Source of the DNA: Haloarcula rubripromontorii
Lineage (GTDB): Archaea; Halobacteriota; Halobacteria; Halobacteriales; Haloarculaceae
Direction of reading: 5' to 3'
Length of the DNA: 64,000 bases
NCBI RefSeq assembly: GCF_001280425.1
Contig: NZ_LIUF01000005.1
Coordinates: 176,877 to 240,876 of the forward strand
Below the pieces are notes generated by a model that did not search any database, was not told the DNA's origin, and was given only the letters and a program-made list of their open reading frames with translations. Made by a program: the position numbers and the translations under genes. The first letter of the stretch is position 1; every line of letters begins with the position of its first letter. Below, piece by piece: positions 1,817-12,845 of this stretch.

Positions 1817-3982
1817 TCAGGCCAGTTCGTCGGTGATAACCGACCGCAGGTCGGCGATTTCTTTGGCGTCGTACTGCAGTTGCTCGTCGTTGACAGTGAT
1901 ATCGAGGCGGTTCGAGCCGTTGGCCTCACCAAGTTCCGTCACCGGCGCGACGCCGTCGAAGGCCTCGCGGACGGCTGCCGGGTCGGTCGTCTCGAACACC
2001 ACGCGACCGGGCCGTTCGTTGAACAGGAGGCGCTTCTTGCTCCCGCGGTCGACCGTTTCGATTTCGACCGACGCGCCGGCGTCCGCGTGGACCATTTCGG
2101 CCAGCGTCACCGCGAGACCGCCGTGGCTCACGTCGTGGCTCGCAAGCACGTGGTCGGCGTCGGCGACCGCGGCAATCGTCTCGATGGCCTCCGTCGAGTC
2201 CGCCGGGAGGGCGGGGAAACGGTCGGTGCCGCCGAACTGCGCAGTGTACTCGGAACCGCCGAGGCGCGGGTCGGCCTCGCCTTCGAGTGCGGTGTCGCCG
2301 ACGACGACGAGCGTGCCCTCGCCCGACAGCGACAGCGGCGGGGCGTCGTAGCCCTCCTTGACGCCGACGAGCGCGAGCGTCGGCGTGGGCGGAATCGGCC
2401 CCTCCTGTGAGTCGTTGTACAGCGAGACGTTGCCGCCGACGACCGGCACGTCGAGATCGCTGCACATGTCCGCCAGGCCGTCGACGATGCCTTTGAAGCC
2501 GCCGTACACGTCCGGTTTCTCGGGGTTGCCGCCGTTCAGACAGTCCACGGCCGCGTGGGGCGTCGCGCCCTTCGCGGCGACGTTCGTGGCGTTTTCCAGC
2601 GCGACGGCGCGAGCGCCTTCGTAGGGGGCCGCGTCGGTCCAGTTGGGGTCCGCGCCGGCCGAGAAGGCGAGCCCGGTGCCGGCCTCGCGGATGGCGAGCA
2701 GGGCGGCATCGTCGCCCGGCAGGACGCTCGTTCGGACCTGCACCTCGTGGTCGTACTGGCGGTAGACCCACCGCTTCGAGGCACAGTTCGGGCTGCCGAC
2801 GATGCGGTCGAACGCCTCGTCCAGCGACACGGTCGGCAGGTCTCGCTCCTGTTTCGGTGGCGCGTCGCTCGGCAGGTCGTTCATCGGCGCACCGTCGCCG
2901 AGGAACGCGGCGTCCACGTCGACGACCGTCTCGCCCTCGAAGGTGCAGACATAGTTCGTCCCCGGCTCGGTGAGTTCGCCGATGACCGAACAACCGAGGT
3001 CGAACCGCTCCGCGAGTTCGGCCACGCGGTCGACGTTCTCCGGTGCGACCTCGTACACCATCCGCTCCTGGCTCTCGGCGAGCAGGTACTCCATGGCGTT
3101 CATGTTTGGCTCGCGCTCGTGGACGCGGTCGAGTTCGATGCGCGCGCCGAGGCCGCCTTTGGCGACTAGCTCCGAAGACGCCCCTCCGAGGCCAGCGGCT
3201 CCGAGGTCGCGGGCCGACTCGACGAGTTCCTCGTCCAGCAGCGCCTCGTTGCACTCGATGAGCAGTTTCTCCGAGTACGGGTCGCCGACCTGCACGGCCG
3301 GCCGGTCCTCCGTTTCGGCGTCCTCGGCGAGGTCCTCGCTGGCGAAGGAGGCCCCGCCTAGGCCGTCCCGGCCCGTCGCGTTGCCGACGAGGACGAGCTT
3401 GTTACCCGGTTCCTGCGCCTCGGCGGTGATGGTCCGCTCGGGCTCCAGCAGGCCGATACAGGAGACGTTCACCAGGGGGTTGCCCTCGTAGTCGTCGTGG
3501 AAGGCGACGCTGCCGGCGACGGTCGGAACGCCGATGCAGTTCCCGTAGTGGGAGATACCTTCGACGACGCCCTCGAAGAGATAGCGGGAGTGTTCTCGGT
3601 CGAAGTCGCCGAAGTACAGGCAGTCGGCCAGCGCGATTGGGTAGGCTCCCATCGAGAGGGTGTCGCGGACGATGCCGCCGACACCGGTGGCCGCTCCGTC
3701 GAACGGGTCGACGTAGGACGGGTGGTTGTGGGACTCGACGCCCATCGTGATGTACATCTCCTCGCCGTCGCCGTGGGTCGGCAGGGAGACGACGGCCGCG
3801 TCGTCGCCGGGACCGATGACGACCTGGTCGCCCTCGGAGTCGAACGCCGACAGCAGGGGGCGAGAGGAGCGATACGCGCAGTGTTCGCTCCAGAGGTTCT
3901 CGAAGAGAGCGGCCTCCGCCCGTGTCGGCTCCCGACCGATCTCCTCGACCACGAGTTCGTGGTCCGCGTCGGACAGGCTCAT
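1817..3982 (-). CDS. purL: Phosphoribosylformylglycinamidine synthase subunit PurL
   Basis: 721 residues, the usual length of the archaeal small-type PurL. It makes FGAM from FGAR, ATP and ammonia in purine synthesis, with PurS and PurQ encoded elsewhere. Visible motifs are the N-terminal [12 protein letters not shown] block, the catalytic-region [17 protein letters not shown], the glycine-rich [11 protein letters not shown]-site segment and the repeated AIRS-type halves. The frame stays open to 4255, but the first 91 residues of that longer form are not PurL-like. The ATG at 3982 ([18 protein letters not shown]) gives the canonical N-terminus. It converges with the histidine kinase, with no gap between the two stops. 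Confidence 0.95.
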
Positions 3983-6013: not shown

Positions 6014-6247
6014 ATGCCAGCAACCACACTCGACCTGCGTGAGACGCCGCCGCCCGAGCGACACTCGAAGATACACGACTCTTTCGAGGCGCTGTCGTCC
6101 GGAGAGACGCTTCGGATTATCAACGACCACGAACCGAAGCCGCTGTTCTACGAAATGCAAGCTGAGGTCGAGGCGTTCGACGCAGCGAATTACCGGTGCG
6201 AGCAGGACGGTCCAGAAAAGTACGTCGCTGATCTCCCGAAACAATGA
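6014..6247 (+). CDS. DUF2249 domain protein
   Basis: 77 residues that are essentially one DUF2249 domain: LDLRETPPPERHSKIHDSF, then LIINDHEPKPLFYEM-like GETLRIINDHEPKPLFYEM and a C-terminal strand. The HEPKPLFYE segment is the family hallmark. DUF2249 has a small TusA-like fold and is often found next to hemerythrin, cupin and nitrogen-oxide genes; its biochemical role is unsettled. The ATG at 6014 is preferred to the GTG at 6011. Its last codons overlap the cupin start by ATGA, indicating translational coupling. A second DUF2249 protein lies at 6914-7198. Confidence 0.8.
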   Translation: MPATTLDLRETPPPERHSKIHDSFEALSSGETLRIINDHEPKPLFYEMQAEVEAFDAANYRCEQDGPEKYVADLPKQ

Positions 6248-6561
6248 GCAAATCCACTGCCGCAGAAACCGAGCGAGCAACGCTCGACGGTGACGAAAAC
6301 GGCCGGACGAGGTTGTTTGACGGGGAGCCAAAGACCATCCAGTTGATGCTTGGTGCGGGCGAGTCAATTCCGGCGCATAAGCATCCCGGTCGGGACATCG
6401 TGTTCTTCCTCCGTTCAGGCGCCGTGGATCTGACGCTCGGTGACGAGACGCTGTCACTCTCTCCCGGAGACATCGTCCGGTTTGACGGGGATCAGGACAT
6501 CTCCCCCGCCGCAGCGGCGGACAGCGAGGCACTGCTCGTTCTGGCGGCGTCGTCGGAGTAG
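6244..6561 (+). CDS. Cupin-domain protein
   Basis: 105 residues forming a single cupin barrel. Motif 1 is GESIPAHKHPGRDIVFFLRSG, supplying two histidines and the usual acidic position, and motif 2 is LSPGDIVRFDGDQDISPAA, where the conserved motif-2 histidine seems absent. Cupins of this size act as metal-dependent sensors or small enzymes. It overlaps the DUF2249 stop by 4 bases and probably shares its promoter with the CGAA-N4-TTCG site. Substrate unknown; the context suggests redox or nitrogen-oxide metabolism. Confidence 0.8.
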   Translation: MSKSTAAETERATLDGDENGRTRLFDGEPKTIQLMLGAGESIPAHKHPGRDIVFFLRSGAVDLTLGDETLSLSPGDIVRFDGDQDISPAAAADSEALLVLAASSE

Positions 6562-6644: not shown

Positions 6645-6917
6645 TCACTCGAACAGGGAGATCGCCGTTTCGATCCGCTCGTCGTCCGCGTTCCTCGCCG
6701 CGTCCTGCAGACTTGCACGGGGGACAGCGAGCAGTCGCTCGACGAGCCGCTCGCTCAGTTGTTCGACCGCCAGCCGCTGGGCAGCCGTCAGGTCACCGTC
6801 CTGCTGGAGCTGTGACAGCGTCCGTTCGAGTTGCTCCTGTTGAATCTTCGCACCACGGCTGTTGATACGAGCGACCGCTTCGTCGACGTCGACAGGTGGC
6901 TCCGTGTTCCGACTCAT
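6645..6917 (-). CDS. Stand-alone glutamyl-tRNA reductase dimerisation-like domain
   Basis: 90 residues, nearly all helical. DEAVARINSRGAKIQQEQL..., the DGDLTAAQRLAVEQLSERLVERLLAVPRASL stretch and the end DDERIETAISLFE closely resemble the C-terminal dimerisation helices of archaeal HemA (R-E-x-EL-x-A ... LxxLLAPPTKSLRDAA ... ETALRLF). The NADP-binding and catalytic parts of HemA, including the active-site cysteine, are absent, so it cannot make glutamate semialdehyde. It may bind HemA or compete for its dimerisation, tuning heme supply; this is an inference. Its ATG overlaps the stop of the upstream DUF2249 gene. Confidence 0.7.
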   Translation of the reverse strand: MSRNTEPPVDVDEAVARINSRGAKIQQEQLERTLSQLQQDGDLTAAQRLAVEQLSERLVERLLAVPRASLQDAARNADDERIETAISLFE

Positions 6918-7198
6918 CTGCGCCAGATGACCGTCACTGTCGCGTCCTCGGTCTCAACACTTTCGAAGTCGTATCCTCTGTCTTCGAGTTTCGGATAGAG
7001 GTGCTGTGGGGCACGGTCGTTGAACTGGACGAGCACGGTATCGTCGTCGAGGTCCGCAAGCAACTCCAGCGTCTGCTTGAGCGGCTTCGGCGGCCCCAGC
7101 GACTGCACGTCGAGACATTCCGTCGGCGCGTCATCGGGCGCATCGGTTTCCGAAACCAGGGCCGCGGTTTGGGCTGTTGGCTGGTGGTTCGGCGTCAT
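6914..7198 (-). CDS. DUF2249 domain protein (second copy)
   Basis: 94 residues from the ATG at 7198. About 25 polar residues lead into ECLDVQSLGPPKPLKQTLELL, NDRAPQHLYPKLEDRGYDFE and a final beta strand, the DUF2249 arrangement. It differs clearly from the copy at 6014-6247, with RAPQHLYP replacing HEPKPLFY. It is first of a two-gene minus-strand operon with the HemA-dimerisation-like gene (ATGA overlap) and diverges from the polytopic membrane protein gene, with a CGAA-N4-TTCG palindrome between them. Function unresolved. Confidence 0.8.
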   Translation of the reverse strand: MTPNHQPTAQTAALVSETDAPDDAPTECLDVQSLGPPKPLKQTLELLADLDDDTVLVQFNDRAPQHLYPKLEDRGYDFESVETEDATVTVIWRR

Positions 7199-7235
7199 GT
7201 GTTCTCGTTCGGTTGTGAGCGGGCCGTCCCTTTTC

Positions 7236-7249
7236 CCGAACATATTCGG
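7236..7249. promoter_or_regulatory. Palindrome CCGAA-CATA-TTCGG in divergent promoter
   Basis: A perfect 5-4-5 inverted repeat between the DUF2249 gene (start 7198, minus) and the membrane protein gene (start 7288, plus). It has the same CGAA-N4-TTCG core as the copy at 5961-5976, so both divergent pairs are likely under one regulator. Confidence 0.55.
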
Positions 7250-7287
7250 CCACACTGCCAGCAAGGACAGGGCCGTATCAGACGATA

Positions 7288-8601
7288 ATGAGCGGAATAC
7301 CTGCTGATGTGGACGCTGACGCCGCACCGCCGATGACGGTGCCGCTGCGTCATTTCGTCGTCGCGCTGGCGTTTCTGGTCGCCGGTGTCACCGTCGGCGT
7401 CGTCGAGGGTCGGACCGGCCACCTCGCACAGGTCCACCTGCTGCTTGCGGGGTGGGTCTGTCTCACCATCATGGGCGCACTGACGCAGTTCGTCCCGGTC
7501 TGGTGTGGCATCGAACTCCATTCGCGTCACCTTGCCGCTGTGCAGTTACCACTCGCAGCGGTCGGGTTCGCGGGGCTGGCAGCTGGCTTCCTGACGGGGA
7601 CTCCCGCGCTATTGCCAGTTGCTGGCGCAATCGCGCTGGTCGGGGTCTGGATCCTCTGTTACAACGTCGGGCGGACACTGCTCGCTGCAGCGCCCGATGT
7701 CACGGCGATTCATTTCGGCTTGGCACTGGTGTTTTTCGCCCTCGTGACGACCGCCGGGGTGGTGCTGGCGCTGGACCACGCTGCCGGGGTCCTCCCGTTG
7801 CTTGGCATCGGCCGACAGGGACTCTTGCTTGCTCATGGAACACTCGCCGTGTTCGGCGCGGTCCTGACAACTGTCGCGGGCGCGCTGGCCCAGCTCGCCC
7901 CGATGTTTACGCAGGCCGACACCGGCCGCATTGACACGGCGGCCCAGCGGGTCGAGACCGCCTGCTATCCGGTCGGTGTTCTCCTGCTGGCCGGCGGCCG
8001 CTTGGTCGGCTCGCTTGCTCTGGCCCGCATCGGTGCAGTACTGGTCGCTGCTGGTCTCGGCGTGGTGGCGCTGCTTCTGGCGCGACAGCTAATCGGTGCG
8101 CGCGTCGAGTGGTCGCCGATGCTGACCCGCTACAGTGTCGCGGCGTTGTCGCTGTTTCTCTGGGCCGGCCTGACGGCGGTCGCATGGTGGACCGACCCGC
8201 TCGCGTACACCGGGCTGCTCGGTCAGCCGTCGACTGTGTTGCTCGTCGGTGGCGTCGGCTTTGTCGTCTTCGGGACGCTGTATCACGTCGTCCCGTTCAT
8301 TATCTGGGTCCATCGGTACAGTGACCGTCTCGGTTTCGAAGACGTGCCGATGGTCGATGACCTGTACAACCACCGGATCGCGGCGGTCGATGGTGTTGCA
8401 CTGACTATTGCGTACGCCCTCCTCGTGAGTAAGCAGTGGCTTGAGACACCGAACGGCACGGCGCTGGCCGTCGGGCTACTCGCGTTTTTCGGAAGCGTCC
8501 TGTTCGCGGGGAACCTCGTCGCCGTCTTCGTCGAGCACAGCCCACAATCGCTGCCGACACTCCTGACCGGTCGTGAGCGCACGCCCGGCGAGGACTCGTG
8601 A
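7288..8601 (+). CDS. Polytopic membrane protein, heme-copper-oxidase subunit I/NnrS-like
   Basis: 437 residues with about 12 membrane helices. Histidines sit at helix positions typical of heme or metal ligands: His45 and His50 (GHLAQVHLLLAGW), His142, His164, His183 (LLLAHGTLAVFGA) and a YHVVPFIIWVHRY pair near residue 335. This pattern resembles small subunit-I-like proteins and the NnrS family, which bind heme and copper and are linked to nitrogen-oxide metabolism. The Tyr-His crosslink motif of true oxidases is not evident. The gene sits among DUF2249 and cupin genes behind a CGAA-N4-TTCG palindrome. The exact family was not confirmed. Confidence 0.6.
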   Translation: MSGIPADVDADAAPPMTVPLRHFVVALAFLVAGVTVGVVEGRTGHLAQVHLLLAGWVCLTIMGALTQFVPVWCGIELHSRHLAAVQLPLAAVGFAGLAAGFLTGTPALLPVAGAIALVGVWILCYNVGRTLLAAAPDVTAIHFGLALVFFALVTTAGVVLALDHAAGVLPLLGIGRQGLLLAHGTLAVFGAVLTTVAGALAQLAPMFTQADTGRIDTAAQRVETACYPVGVLLLAGGRLVGSLALARIGAVLVAAGLGVVALLLARQLIGARVEWSPMLTRYSVAALSLFLWAGLTAVAWWTDPLAYTGLLGQPSTVLLVGGVGFVVFGTLYHVVPFIIWVHRYSDRLGFEDVPMVDDLYNHRIAAVDGVALTIAYALLVSKQWLETPNGTALAVGLLAFFGSVLFAGNLVAVFVEHSPQSLPTLLTGRERTPGEDS

Positions 8602-8602
8602 C

Positions 8603-8899
8603 TCAGGTCGTCGTGGTCGGTTGATCGGTGTACAGCGAGTACGTCAGGATAAAGAACCCAGCAGCGGTGAACAGTTCTTCGACAGTGACACTCTGTGCTA
8701 CCGGCATCCCGACGAGCTGGTGGAGGCTCCCGCCGAGTATCGCGCCCAGCGTGACGAACCCGATGCCGAAACAGAGCGCCCGCATCGCCGGTGCCTGCGT
8801 GCGACGGTATGCGCGGTAGGTCAACGTCGTCAGTACCACACCACAGAACAGTGTGACTGTCTTCATCCCGATTAACAGCACTGCGTTCGCTCCGAGCAT
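8603..8899 (-). CDS. DUF7521-like small membrane protein
   Basis: 98 residues from the ATG at 8899, with three hydrophobic helices: MKTVTLFCGVVLTTLTYRAY, ALCFGIGFVTLGAILGGSLH and ELFTAAGFFILTYSLY. The TYRAYRRTQAPAM turn and the ending ILTYSLY match the neighbour at 9055-9354, so the two are paralogues. I recall this family as DUF7521; no function is known. It converges with the polytopic membrane protein gene, the stops being 1 base apart. The longer frame upstream of 8899 is charged and not family-like. Confidence 0.65.
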   Translation of the reverse strand: MLGANAVLLIGMKTVTLFCGVVLTTLTYRAYRRTQAPAMRALCFGIGFVTLGAILGGSLHQLVGMPVAQSVTVEELFTAAGFFILTYSLYTDQPTTTT

Positions 8900-9054
8900 G
8901 CTCCTGATTGACACGTCCTTACAAATATACCGTCCGTCGCGTTTCCAGTCGGTGAGAATACCACTGCAACAACGCAACACGGAGCAGCTGCCCGCGCCGA
9001 CTAAATCGAGACCGAAGAAGCGAATCTGTTACGGTGGGGTGCTTTCCGTACTCG

Positions 9055-9354
9055 CTACCGGACGTACAGCGAGTACAGGATGATACCCAGGCCGATGGCC
9101 GTCAGCGAACTCGACGTGAAGACGCTTACCGGAAGCAGTTCTTGGCCGAGATACCTGCCAATGGCGATGTCGAGCACACCGCCGGCAAACGCACCGAGGG
9201 TCACCACCCCGAACCCGTATGTGAGCCACTTGTGCTGGGGGCTTTTCGTCCGGCTGTACGCCTGATACGAGTAGTACGTTATCAGTCCGCCAAGAATGAG
9301 GATCAGTGTCTTCGAGACGACGATGCCGACCTGTGAACTTGGGATGTGTACCAT
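9055..9354 (-). CDS. DUF7521-like small membrane protein (paralogue)
   Basis: 99 residues, three helices: IVVSKTLILILGGLITYYSY, WLTYGFGVVTLGAFAGGVLD and SSSLTAIGLGIILYSLYV. The YSYQAYSRTKSPQ loop and GFGVVTLGAxxGG core match the gene at 8603-8899. It starts 2 bases after the stop of the winged-helix gene, forming a regulator-membrane protein operon. Such pairs are common in haloarchaea; whether the regulator senses through the membrane protein is unknown. Confidence 0.7.
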   Translation of the reverse strand: MVHIPSSQVGIVVSKTLILILGGLITYYSYQAYSRTKSPQHKWLTYGFGVVTLGAFAGGVLDIAIGRYLGQELLPVSVFTSSSLTAIGLGIILYSLYVR

Positions 9355-9356
9355 GG

Positions 9357-9734
9357 TTATGTCTCCTTTCGCACCTCAGACCAGAGGTTTTCGAGCCGTT
9401 GGTCCGGCGTCCGAGCGCGATGTGAGATGTCGACGGTGAGCGACAGTTCCTCGTCGAGACTGATGACAACCTCCTCGAAATCGATAGCGTACCGGCTCGC
9501 GTGTTGCCCGTCCGACCTGACCTCGACGCCCTCGTACAGCAACGAGGACTCCGTCAGTAGTTCGAGCTTTCGGTAGGTCGTCGATAGCGGTACGCCGCTC
9601 CGGTCGGATATCTCGCTCGCTGTCAACGGTTCCTCCAGTACGCTGACAATGGCGCGGCAGTCCTCGTCGTCGAGTGCGTCGAGGACCGCCTGTAACTCCG
9701 GCGTCTCCTCGTCAGCGAAGGGGTCCCGGACCAT
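9357..9734 (-). CDS. Winged helix-turn-helix transcriptional regulator
   Basis: 125 residues from the ATG at 9734. Residues about 10-75 form an ArsR/TrmB-like winged helix (LQAVLDALDDEDCRAIVSVL, LTASEISDRSGVPLSTTYRKLELLTESSLL), followed by a beta-rich tail and a helix ending ENLWSEVRKET. It is divergent from the multicopper oxidase gene, and two 7-5-7 inverted repeats lie between them, so it is the nearest candidate to bind those sites. Downstream it is joined to a DUF7521-like gene. The frame upstream of 9734 looks untranslated. Confidence 0.8.
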   Translation of the reverse strand: MVRDPFADEETPELQAVLDALDDEDCRAIVSVLEEPLTASEISDRSGVPLSTTYRKLELLTESSLLYEGVEVRSDGQHASRYAIDFEEVVISLDEELSLTVDISHRARTPDQRLENLWSEVRKET

Positions 9735-9862: not shown

Positions 9863-9919
9863 GTTCCCAATTACTGAGAACGGTTCCGTTGACCTGAGAA
9901 CTCGCTTTGGGGGTTTATA
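9863..9919 (+). promoter_or_regulatory. Tandem operator plus TATA box of the multicopper oxidase gene
   Basis: GTTCCCA-ATTAC-TGAGAAC at 9863-9881 is followed exactly 20 bases later by a weaker GTTCCGT-TGACC-TGAGAAC at 9883-9901, placing the two on the same DNA face. TTTATA at 9914-9919 follows, about 27 bases before the ATG. A perfect version of the same repeat lies at 11240-11258. Position just upstream of TATA fits an activator site, though repression is possible. Confidence 0.6.
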
Positions 9920-9945
9920 CTGTGGTGTCTTATCGTCAATTGCTT

Positions 9946-11097
9946 ATGGAAGACCAGATCGGCGCACCCGGATCGGGCATCTCCCGTCGCGACTTCGTGA
10001 AAGCCTCCGGCCTCGGCGGCACGGTCGCGCTCGCGGGCTGTACCGCTCCGGGTGAGGTTCCAACTGAAGAGTCAGTCGACACCAGCACGACTCCAGCGCA
10101 ATCCGACAGCGACCTCCCGACCACGTCGCCGCCGGAGATTGTCAACGTCGACGAACAGGGTGGTGAAGTGACGCTTTCCTCCGTCCCGGCCAAACACGAG
10201 GCTCACCCCGGCGAATCGATGGGCGGCCCAGTCGAACTGCCGAAGGTGTGGGCGTTCAAGGCCGACGACGGCGAACCGAGCGTTCCAGGGCCGATTCTTC
10301 GGACGACGGAAGGCGAGGACATGGAGGTCACCTTCGACAACACGGACGGCATGCGCCCGCATACGGTCCACTTCCACGCCGTCCAGAAGCAGTGGGAGGA
10401 CGACGGCGTCCCGACGACGACGGGCATCCGTATCGACCCCGGCGAGAAGCACACCTACACTATCCCCGCGAACGTGACGGGCACGCACCTCTATCACTGC
10501 CATTACCAGACCCATCGCCACATCGACATGGGGATGTACGGCATCTTCCGTGTCGATCCGAAGGGGTACGAGCCGGCCGACAAGGAGTACTTCATGACGC
10601 TGAAGGAGTGGGACTCCCGGCTGAACCGTCAGATGGCCGGCATGGACGCCAGCTACGACGTTCGTAACCGCCGCCCTGACACGTTCACGGTCAACGGGAA
10701 GTCCGCGCCCCGGACGCTTCACCCGGAGGACGGTTCGCCAATCATCGTCGAGCAGGGTGATACGGTGCGCATCCACATGTGTAACAACGGGTACATGGAC
10801 CACCCGATGCACATCCACAACCACCGCTTCCAGGTGACTCACAAGGACGGCGGAAAGATTCCGGAAGCCGCTCGCCACGATCAGGACATCACCAGCATCC
10901 CGCCCGCCGGTCGGCACACCATCGAGTTCGAAGCCGACGCCGACCCCGGCATCTACCTCGCGCACTGTCACAAGGTCAGCCACGCGATGAACGGAACCTC
11001 CTACCCCGGTGGGATGATCACCGGTGTTGTCTACAAGGAAGCGATGGACACCGATATCTTCAAGCAGTTGATGGACTACGCCGGTTACGAAGGGTGA
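9946..11097 (+). CDS. Secreted two-domain multicopper oxidase (Tat lipoprotein)
   Basis: 383 residues. The N-terminus has a Tat motif (SRRDFVKAS) and lipobox ending at Cys32, so the protein is probably lipid-anchored outside the cell. There are two cupredoxin domains. Domain 1 has HTVHFH and HLYHCHYQTHRHIDMGM, with Cys, His at +5 and Met at +10, a canonical type 1 copper site. Domain 2 has HPMHIHNHRF and HCHKVSHAM. The HxH and HCH pairs would build a trinuclear centre between subunits of a trimer. NirK is less likely because its Asp in the first motif is missing and its Cys-x8-His spacing differs. The ATG at 9946 follows a TATA box. Confidence 0.8.
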   Translation: MEDQIGAPGSGISRRDFVKASGLGGTVALAGCTAPGEVPTEESVDTSTTPAQSDSDLPTTSPPEIVNVDEQGGEVTLSSVPAKHEAHPGESMGGPVELPKVWAFKADDGEPSVPGPILRTTEGEDMEVTFDNTDGMRPHTVHFHAVQKQWEDDGVPTTTGIRIDPGEKHTYTIPANVTGTHLYHCHYQTHRHIDMGMYGIFRVDPKGYEPADKEYFMTLKEWDSRLNRQMAGMDASYDVRNRRPDTFTVNGKSAPRTLHPEDGSPIIVEQGDTVRIHMCNNGYMDHPMHIHNHRFQVTHKDGGKIPEAARHDQDITSIPPAGRHTIEFEADADPGIYLAHCHKVSHAMNGTSYPGGMITGVVYKEAMDTDIFKQLMDYAGYEG

Positions 11098-11239
11098 CCC
11101 GGCGTTTGACGGGCCGTTGAATCGATCGCCCGTGGCATAGACGTTGTTTCTGGAACGATTTCAAAGAGCGGACCCAAAGCGGTAGTTCTTGCGCAACTGC
11201 TGAAATAAATCTCATACTGCTATATCGAATTTGGTTGTG

Positions 11240-11258
11240 GTTCCCAACAACTGGGAAC
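11240..11258 (+). promoter_or_regulatory. Operator GTTCCCA-ACAAC-TGGGAAC
   Basis: A perfect 7-5-7 inverted repeat about 40 bases upstream of the ATG at 11299. It matches the repeat at 9863-9881 before the multicopper oxidase (arms identical on the left, one mismatch on the right), indicating shared control. A T-rich TATA-like stretch at 11271-11280 follows. Confidence 0.6.
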
Positions 11259-11298
11259 ACGCTGGACCCGTTTTTCTTAGGGAAACTAATGGGAGCGT

Positions 11299-11613
11299 AT
11301 GGAAGAGTTCGACCACGAGGTAGACGCCCCGCGCGGCGCAACAAGTCGCGAGTGGGAGGTGTTCGTCCGCGAGGAGACGGCGGACCCGCTTGCTCACGTC
11401 GGCAGTGTCAGCGCGCCGTCCGTCGACATCGCCAGAGAGCAGGCCGCGTCACTGTTCGGACGGACCGCCGTCACGCTGTGGCTGTGTCCCGCCGACGAGA
11501 CTCACCGCTACCAGACGGACGATGCGGCCCTCGGGTCGGGAACGACGGGGGACGACGCCACGATGAGCCTCGACGAGATGGAGTCGGAGACGCTCCGGGG
11601 TGAGAACCGATGA
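11299..11613 (+). CDS. PaaB-like small protein, Htur_1727-type radical SAM partner
   Basis: 104 residues. Residues 18-70 (REWEVFVREETADPLAHVGS ... ASLFGRTAVTLWLCPADETH) form a PaaB-like ferredoxin fold of the kind in phenylacetyl-CoA epoxidase subunit B. The tail is acidic and Gly/Ser/Thr-rich. I recall this haloarchaeal set as the Htur_1727 family, described as a candidate radical-SAM-modified peptide. Its stop overlaps the start of the radical SAM gene (ATGA), so they are co-translated. Whether it is the substrate, a leader/recognition element or an accessory protein is unknown. A palindromic operator precedes it. Confidence 0.75.
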   Translation: MEEFDHEVDAPRGATSREWEVFVREETADPLAHVGSVSAPSVDIAREQAASLFGRTAVTLWLCPADETHRYQTDDAALGSGTTGDDATMSLDEMESETLRGENR

Positions 11614-12845
11614 TTTCGGTCTCGAAACTGCTCTGTGACTTAGACGCCGAGGGGGACGGCCTCCGGTACGACGCGGCCGACGAGTCCACCAAACGCCAGA
11701 TCAGAGATAAAAAGCAGCGCCGGCCGGTCGTCGTCTGGAACGTCACCAAGCAGTGCAATCTCTACTGTGACCACTGCTACGCCGCCGCTGACACCGAAAT
11801 TGCCGACGGCGAACTCTCGACTGCGGAAGGGAAAGCGCTGCTTGAGGACCTGGCGGACTACGGTGCGCCGGTGGTGCTGTTCTCCGGGGGCGAGCCGCTC
11901 GTCCGACAGGACCTCGAAGAGCTGGTCGCCTACGCGAACGAGGTCGGTGTCCGCCCGGTGCTCTCGACCAACGGGACGCTCATCACCGAGGAGCGCGCCC
12001 AGTCGCTCAAGGACGCCGGGCTGAAATACGCCGGCGTCTCCGTCGACGGCCTGCCCGAGCGCAACGACGACTTCCGCGGGGTCGACGGCGCGTTCGAGGG
12101 CGCGGTTCAGGGCATCGAGAACTGCCTCGACGCGGGCCTGAAGACCGGCCTCCGATACACCATCACCGAGCGCAACGCCGCGGATCTGGAGGGCGTCGTG
12201 GACCTGCTGACCGACGTGGGCGTGGATCGCTTCTGCTTCTACCATCTCGACTACGGCGGCCGCGGGACCGAAATCGTCGACGCCGACCTCACACCCGAGG
12301 ACCGTCGGCAGGCGGTCAAGCGAGTCTGTGACATGACTCGCGAGTACCACGACCGCGGCGAGGAGATCGAGACACTACTGGTCGGGAACTACGCCGACGC
12401 TGCCTATCTCGTGGAGTACGCCCGCGAGCACATGAGCGACGCGCAGGCCCAGCGAGTGTACGAGTATCTACGGGTCAACGGCGGGGATCCGACCGGCGAA
12501 CGCGTCGCTGACGTGGACTATCAGGGCAACGTCCACCTCACGCAGTTCTGGCAGGGGTACTCGCTGGGGAACGTCCGCGACCGCTCGTTCGGCGACATCT
12601 GGGAGGACGAGTCGAACCCGCTGCTTCGGGCGCTCCGGAACCGCGAGGACCACCTCACGGGGAAATGCGCCGACTGCCGTTACGCCGAGGTCTGCCGCGG
12701 GGCCTCCCGGCTACGGGCGCTCACCGTCGAAGACGACCTGTTCGCCCCGGACCCGCAGTGTTATCTGGAGGACGCCGAGGTTCACGGGCCGCCACCGTTC
12801 GATACCGGTGAGAACTCGATGGCCAGCGGGCGTTCGGCTGACTGA
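11610..12845 (+). CDS. Radical SAM/SPASM-type protein, NirJ/AhbC/AhbD-like
   Basis: 411 residues. The radical SAM cluster motif is Cys49-x3-Cys53-x2-Cys56 (CNLYCDHC), followed by FSGGEPLVR for SAM binding. The C-terminal block GKCADCRYAEVCRGASRLRA ... DPQCYL carries the auxiliary cluster cysteines and closely matches heme d1/heme b enzymes NirJ, AhbC and AhbD. It may therefore work on a tetrapyrrole, or modify the PaaB-like partner encoded just upstream, with which it overlaps by 4 bases. The nearby HemA-like domain favours a heme link; the pairing with a Htur_1727-type protein favours peptide maturation. Not resolved. Confidence 0.8.
   Translation: MISVSKLLCDLDAEGDGLRYDAADESTKRQIRDKKQRRPVVVWNVTKQCNLYCDHCYAAADTEIADGELSTAEGKALLEDLADYGAPVVLFSGGEPLVRQDLEELVAYANEVGVRPVLSTNGTLITEERAQSLKDAGLKYAGVSVDGLPERNDDFRGVDGAFEGAVQGIENCLDAGLKTGLRYTITERNAADLEGVVDLLTDVGVDRFCFYHLDYGGRGTEIVDADLTPEDRRQAVKRVCDMTREYHDRGEEIETLLVGNYADAAYLVEYAREHMSDAQAQRVYEYLRVNGGDPTGERVADVDYQGNVHLTQFWQGYSLGNVRDRSFGDIWEDESNPLLRALRNREDHLTGKCADCRYAEVCRGASRLRALTVEDDLFAPDPQCYLEDAEVHGPPPFDTGENSMASGRSAD

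Follow-up and report, generated by a model that had tools for sequence, protein, structure and literature searches.

A TATA-proximal palindrome conserved among haloarchaea marks a probable low-oxygen respiration and heme regulon, with a winged-helix protein as its plausible reader

Why are a multicopper oxidase gene and a radical SAM operon of Haloarcula rubripromontorii preceded by the same palindrome, and which protein would read it? The window analyzed here, a stretch of 64,000 nucleotides of contig NZ_LIUF01000005.1, contains three copies of GTTCCCA-N5-TGGGAAC, and the original prediction took these 7-5-7 repeats for a single operator through which one regulator, probably the product of a neighboring winged-helix gene, would control both units. 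The copies, none of which is assigned to a strand, differ in quality. The copy ahead of the radical SAM operon (copy B, 11240-11258; GTTCCCAACAACTGGGAAC) is a perfect palindrome, and the first copy ahead of the oxidase (A1, 9863-9881; GTTCCCAATTACTGAGAAC) has one mismatch and fits the strict pattern GTTCYCA-N5-TGRGAAC; the second (A2, 9883-9901; GTTCCGTTGACCTGAGAAC), however, is degenerate, with three mismatches and its right half-site alone intact. The 20-bp step from A1 to A2 is as described, as is the nearby TATA box of the oxidase promoter (TTTATA, 9914-9919, forward strand), which begins 12 nt after A2 ends. A counterpart of A1 lies at the equal position ahead of the oxidase in three loci of the same genus (L052, L055, L084). 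In three further oxidase-bearing loci (L171, L175, L180), a remnant of A2 with two or three mismatches is kept on the oxidase side, at a 20-bp offset from the full site; these remnants lend some support to the reading that A2 may be a genuine weak copy.

Judged from the window alone, the excess of the motif is modest to weak, with six matches at up to three mismatches compared with a mean of 2.14 in shuffled sequence, and four of 100 shuffles reaching six. In the whole genome, 13 sites were found at up to two mismatches versus five for the reversed word, which served as the control, and the strict form occurs five times versus none. Predicted ORFs contain one of the six sites with at most one mismatch (C3:2000) and five of the seven with two mismatches, and these intragenic sites are probably due to chance.

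Wider genome comparisons extended the pattern to the family and the class. Within the family, the strict form is present in 37 of 96 genomes (control, 1/96), including all eight of the same genus with four to six sites apiece; a larger draw from this genus gave 15 of 15 genomes, with two to six sites each. Across the class, it turned up in 96 of 292 haloarchaeal genomes (control, 2/292), representing 44 of the 77 genera. Beyond the class it was found in 18 of 311 genomes (control, 2/311), compared with 27 of 81 inside the class in the same draw (p=6e-10, an optimistic value because the genomes are related). Conservation ahead of orthologous genes was assessed in loci chosen via the radical SAM protein and hence independently of the motif, of which the best 80 of 146 were used; this set includes two loci from one species and some metagenome-assembled genomes. 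Within 300 bp upstream of the operon start, the best site has zero, one, two or three mismatches in 14, 13, 22 and 16 of the 80 loci, respectively, and the other 15 have no site at up to three mismatches in that interval. The 49 loci with two or fewer mismatches compare with 2.5% of windows placed at random within these loci and 0.2% for the reversed word. Lineage variants also occur, such as GTTCCCAGCCGCCGGGAAC in Halobacterium salinarum (L236) and GTTCTCAATCTCCGAAAAC in Halobellus (L214), indicating that the outer letters GTTCYC...GRGAAC form the core. The repeat is thus neither absent ahead of orthologous genes nor scattered at random through genomes; as far as sequence comparison can tell, it is a conserved haloarchaeal operator common to many genera. 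Among the matches listed in searches of the open-access literature for the motif, DUF7521, Htur_1727/TIGR04347 and haloarchaeal low-oxygen regulation, no account of this operator was found.

The position of the site is constrained as well. A positional set of 110 strict sites from 103 loci and 45 genera was compiled, representing part of all strict sites, with most near-identical Haloarcula copies left out. A plausible start codon lies 38-46 nt downstream in 65 of these sites, drawn from 28 of the 45 genera, compared with 9.5% of 2200 random positions; 45 sites lack a start codon at this distance, and start codons at 47-55 nt and 56-64 nt were found for 24 and 21 of the 110, respectively (random, approximately 9-11%). 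The A/T fraction peaks 13-15 nt past the site (0.75, 0.87 and 0.90 at +13, +14 and +15), which is the expected place of TATA in a leaderless promoter. Both units in the window agree with this peak. The site lies 12 nt upstream of TTTATA in the oxidase promoter and 12 nt upstream of a TATA-like stretch in the radical SAM promoter (TTTTTCTTA, 11271-11279, forward strand), and the distance from site to start is 40 nt for the radical SAM operon and, measured from A2, 44 nt for the oxidase ATG at 9946. Both sites also recur in Haloarcula relatives, and the proposal of one operator ahead of both units holds. By its position the site is a promoter element, the operator standing approximately 13 bp ahead of a TATA-like box; a palindrome at fixed distance from TATA, ahead of several co-functional genes and conserved across genera, has the properties of a TATA-proximal operator regulon.

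The first target in the window is the multicopper oxidase (9946-11097, forward strand; PF07731, PF07732), which is predicted to be exported through a twin-arginine signal (TIGR01409, 20.2 bits; cutoff, 16.7) and whose best solved relative is the two-domain laccase 2zwn. Its score against the copper nitrite reductase NirK model is below threshold (TIGR02376, 62.6 vs. 296.3 bits). The second target, located on the same strand, is an operon that opens with a small Htur_1727-family protein (11299-11613; TIGR04031, 130.8 bits; cutoff, 57.2), followed by a radical SAM/SPASM protein (11610-12845; PF04055, PF13186). TIGR04031 labels the small protein a candidate RiPP; since this protein also matches PaaB and has an AhbC-like enzyme as its partner, its designation as a peptide precursor may be mistaken. 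The radical SAM protein scores 734.6 bits against TIGR04347 (cutoff, 525), 452 against TIGR04054, and 444.5 against the AhbC model TIGR04546, below the cutoff of 650. TIGR04347 bears the name pseudo-SAM; this member nonetheless keeps the CxxxCxxC motif, as CNLYCDHC, together with its SPASM domain. The gene has a single match at E<=1e-60 in its own genome (six of 10 first-look candidates scored), and its nearest named loci, from Haloarcula sebkhae, H. argentinensis and H. amylolytica, show 97-98% identity, a comparison from which its own record may be left out. The protein is likely, though not proven, to be AhbC, the 12,18-didecarboxysiroheme deacetylase, and Haloferax HVO_1121 is given as AhbC in the available part of a published account (PMC8305020). 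Elsewhere in the window, a free-standing 90-residue GlutR dimerization domain (6645-6917; PF00745) has as its neighbors a DUF2249 protein (6914-7327), a cupin (6244-6561) and a protein of 437 residues (7288-8601) that matches no Pfam family.

For the target families named below from other genera, one representative each was checked with Pfam and the rest were placed by BLAST to that representative or by inspection, whereas inspection alone served for FeoB and the small subunits of the oxidase. In the same genome, the site precedes the AhbAB siroheme decarboxylase genes (237 and 167 bits, both exceeding the cutoff), from which a TrpD-like gene diverges, as well as a gene for a 65-residue small protein and one for an HVO_0163-type double-HTH regulator that follows NosL, with nosDFY-like neighbors named by eye. 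Two-mismatch sites in this genome accompany a SHOCT protein and a TrkA/DHH protein. The double-HTH gene (L008, contig C14 of genome G000, 2655-3248) has a strict site in its own promoter and directly follows NosL, and the pairing of site and regulator recurs in L124, L136 and L144. In other genera, sites were found ahead of small subunits of a heme-copper oxidase, with a gene for a heavy-metal P-type ATPase diverging from them; ahead of halocyanins, FeoA, Usp, DoxX, CBS and CoxG; ahead of a protoglobin-MCP transducer and a NUBPL-type Fe-S carrier ATPase; and ahead of DmsR-type HTH_10 regulators, some of which lie beside DUF2249 or molybdoenzyme-like genes. Near-identical DoxX genes with an equal site at 58 nt, two in genome G126 and one in G209 (L158, L160, L161), perhaps represent a duplicated regulated unit. 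The private link between a copper oxidase and a radical SAM system that was first proposed is therefore too narrow: both units are members, but of a larger set that also takes in AhbAB, cytochrome oxidase, halocyanin, FeoA, Usp, DoxX, protoglobin and DmsR-type genes. Since the target set combines oxygen-independent heme synthesis and an oxidase plus its metal pump with the uptake of iron, electron carriers and oxygen sensing, and so recalls the contents of bacterial FNR/ANR/FixK regulons, it is probably a low-oxygen respiration and heme regulon.

Which protein reads the operator is the harder question. The winged-helix gene (9357-9734, reverse strand; Pfam HTH_20, 35 bits vs. a gathering threshold of 27) is followed directly by a gene for a small DUF7521 protein (9055-9354, reverse strand; PF24365), with a second DUF7521 gene beyond it (8603-8902, reverse strand; PF24365). 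DUF7521 lies directly downstream of the winged-helix gene in 74 of 75 loci. The winged-helix protein does not qualify as an ArsR/SmtB metalloregulator, scoring 20.2 bits against NF033788 (cutoff, 55). Among 76 aligned sequences, Cys26, His78, Ser51, Tyr54, Arg55 and Lys56 are present in all, Thr52 in 99% and Thr53 in 68%; the helix S-T-x-Y-R-K is thus kept in 99-100%, and such a conserved recognition helix is what a conserved operator needs. Cys26 and His78 are also present in the L111 paralogue, and these residues may belong to the wider winged-helix family.

Linkage between gene and site extends beyond the genus. Genes of the winged-helix family (phmmer E<1e-20) occur in 10 of the 103 site loci, from five genera (g1, g8, g13, g24, g45), where approximately 2.7 would be expected by chance if each genome had 13 of them (p=5e-4); the maximum in a fully scored family search, at the laxer E<=1e-3, was 14 per genome. 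In Haloarcula the gene and the oxidase are divergently oriented and flank the site, an arrangement also seen in g24 with a 41% paralogue (L111). In three other g24 loci (L112-L114), it is divergent from DoxX with a site common to both, and in L071 it lies near a site-bearing DoxX gene; in g20, g21 and g36, family members lie approximately 4-8 kb from a site. This linkage may in part reflect common ancestry of one neighborhood. Co-occurrence points the same way. Where a close winged-helix match is lacking (best E>1e-20), the radical SAM gene was found in one of 11 genomes, versus 176 of 281 genomes that have such a match (p=5e-4), and in 1/20 versus 176/272 (E>5e-29) and 3/24 versus 174/268 (E>1e-30) at other thresholds; at most 15 winged-helix and six radical SAM first-look candidates were scored per genome in these searches, and relatedness among the genomes makes the p value optimistic. 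With all candidates scored, the gene was present in one of 20 genomes without a close match versus 15 of 28 genomes selected for comparison, largely within the same genera. G220 (L291) is the one genome that has a radical SAM gene and no winged-helix gene, and its best upstream match has three mismatches; the winged-helix-bearing loci L299 and L300 of the same genus do no better, with five and four.

The claim that the 9357-9734 product is the regulator thus gains from its linkage, from its occurring together with the radical SAM gene and from the conserved helix, but two results weigh against it. Within 350 nt upstream of the winged-helix gene, the site was found at up to one mismatch in only 13 of 76 promoters and at up to two in 17, and four of the 13 (L111-L114) had been chosen for having one; autoregulation through the 7-5-7 site was thus rejected as a general feature. 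Furthermore, strict motif and winged-helix gene do not co-vary genome by genome, the motif being present in four of 20 genomes without the gene and 92 of 272 with it (p=0.32). Two of the four motif sites in genomes without the gene look promoter-like, one at a distance (d) of 41 in G200 and one before Usp in G153. Although the case is circumstantial, no better candidate emerged than the 9357-9734 protein, which is a plausible one; that its family reads the operator comes near to an even prospect without quite reaching it.

The 63 promoters that lack a site at up to one mismatch and the missing co-variation also feed the strongest alternative, namely that operator and regulon are as described and are read by a different, unlinked regulator, for instance another winged-helix protein or one of DmsR/HTH_10 type, with the 9357-9734 gene a neighbor or downstream member. 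This alternative is to be taken seriously without being probable. The site stands in the promoters of HVO_0163-type regulators themselves, both in Haloarcula and in three further genera (L008, L124 and L144, and L136 at 68 nt), and in those of several DmsR/HTH_10-type genes (L056, L058, L059, L061, L137, L148). However, with at most 12 candidates scored per genome, motif-bearing genomes such as G003, G020, G037, G048, G062, G129, G240 and G297 gave only distant paralogues of the HVO_0163 type (best E approximately 1e-16 to 2e-20), and this double-HTH protein was rejected as a universal regulator. The DmsR-type proteins look like targets, and one of them could still be the reader; a dimer of winged-helix proteins would fit the 12-bp spacing between half-site centers better than one of HTH_10 type. 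NarO, for its part, is set apart by its published motif, CGAAYATDKTYG, which differs from the present word and sits 66-79 nt upstream of the start codon of nir, nor and nos in the available portion of that report (PMC10062603).

Taken together, these observations incline us, if only slightly, towards a regulon of heme-synthesis and electron-transport genes behind a conserved operator approximately 13 bp upstream of the TATA-like box, switched on by one winged-helix regulator as oxygen falls. A dimer of the 9357-9734 family would bind the operator, and binding upstream of BRE/TATA would recruit the basal machinery, resulting in activation rather than repression. Recurrent fixed spacing upstream of BRE/TATA is typical of archaeal activator sites. 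The spacing seen here recurs in 28 of 45 genera, and the site overlaps neither TATA nor start, both of which argue against a repressor that blocks TBP/TFB when oxygen or copper suffices and opens the regulon on leaving. Such repression, which we regard as unlikely, would fit the closeness of the palindrome to BRE/TATA and has a parallel in CsmR, a haloarchaeal winged helix that, in the accessible part of its description, binds beside TATA at TATCA-N4-TGATA and represses targets that rise on its deletion (PMC13286277). Given this precedent, a palindrome next to TATA would agree with repression here as well.

For the activating winged-helix regulator, the signal may be low oxygen or a linked redox, NO or copper signal, sensed perhaps via the conserved Cys26 and His78 or by the partner protein DUF7521. 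In the window, the predicted exported multicopper oxidase and the AhbC-like heme-pathway enzyme would then be raised together. A purely copper-responsive regulon, in which the operator would be devoted to supplying copper and to the enzymes that use it, could account for the oxidase, the halocyanins, the NosL-linked regulator, the P-type ATPase and cytochrome oxidase. It is nonetheless quite improbable: AhbAB, the AhbC-like enzyme, FeoA, the protoglobin transducer, Usp, the Fe-S carrier ATPase and the DmsR-type targets are not copper proteins, the candidate regulator falls short of the metalloregulator model, and a copper-only regulon was rejected as too narrow for the target list. Finally, chance palindromes in a G+C-rich genome, an idea with which the weak window-only count would agree, are contradicted by the own-genome, family, class, out-of-class, positional and random-window controls and can practically be dismissed.

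The promoters of the winged-helix genes offer a further clue to their place in low-oxygen physiology. A relaxed NarO-type palindrome core (e.g., GAACATGTTC; L089, L091, L253, L255) occurs in 20 of 75 of them compared with 3% of random windows, and the published NarO consensus in seven of 75, a figure without a random control. These cores place the winged-helix gene in the same physiology, hinting at a cascade. A second element abuts TATA in many of these promoters (L089-L108, L251-L290); by eye, it is TGTCGGTGCGATTATA-like in many loci of family f1 and ATCGATGCCGATAAA-like in many of f3, and it may be the gene's own operator. In the boldest form of the proposal, the Cys26/His78 winged helix, encoded with DUF7521, would be the haloarchaeal class's own FNR/FixK, reading the operator and switching on a class-wide low-oxygen program of anaerobic heme synthesis, oxidases, halocyanins, iron uptake and an oxygen-sensing transducer, while itself standing under a NarO-type operator in many lineages in a two-tier oxygen/N-oxide cascade. 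We consider this version doubtful. According to the available excerpts of two reports, NarO is the only described regulator of haloarchaeal denitrification, others remaining unknown (PMC11218638, PMC10062603). A further operator found across the class, for which a position, a set of genes and one candidate protein can be named, makes it directly testable what else governs low-oxygen life in cultured genera such as Haloarcula and Halobacterium, and, if the proposal is true, the oxygen-independent Ahb heme pathway would be tied to a specific switch.

In gene content, the closest parallel is bacterial. FNR, ANR and FixK regulons place heme synthesis, oxidases with a copper P-type ATPase, Feo, Usp and redox regulators under one palindrome; here, by contrast, the promoters are archaeal TATA promoters, and the FNR box is unlike the haloarchaeal 7-5-7 word in sequence. 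Among archaeal systems, the NarO-type operator of Haloferax is similar in being a palindrome common to haloarchaeal anaerobic-respiration promoters, including those of ahbD and a multicopper oxidase (PMC5746218, PMC10062603, PMC11218638, as far as the available excerpts go). Its sequence and length are different, and for nir, nor and nos it is described as lying 66-79 nt from the start codon (PMC10062603), compared with 38-46 nt for 65 of 110 sites here and 47-64 nt for some others. The NarO-type motif was thus rejected as the identity of the site by distance as well as by sequence, the three sites in the window being GTTCYCA-N5-TGRGAAC-like. NarO is also, in those excerpts, of the bacterioopsin-activator/DmsR-like kind, unlike the winged-helix candidate. 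CsmR of Haloferax volcanii shares with that candidate a small winged-helix build and a TATA-adjacent semi-palindrome; it differs in its motif, in serving motility and shape genes, and in being a repressor, as the accessible text has it (PMC13286277). The DmsR/Bat-type HTH_10 regulators, in turn, are tied to haloarchaeal anaerobic respiration in the portions of the literature available, and some carry the 7-5-7 site themselves; they appear here as targets, however, and are of the HTH_10 rather than the winged-helix kind.
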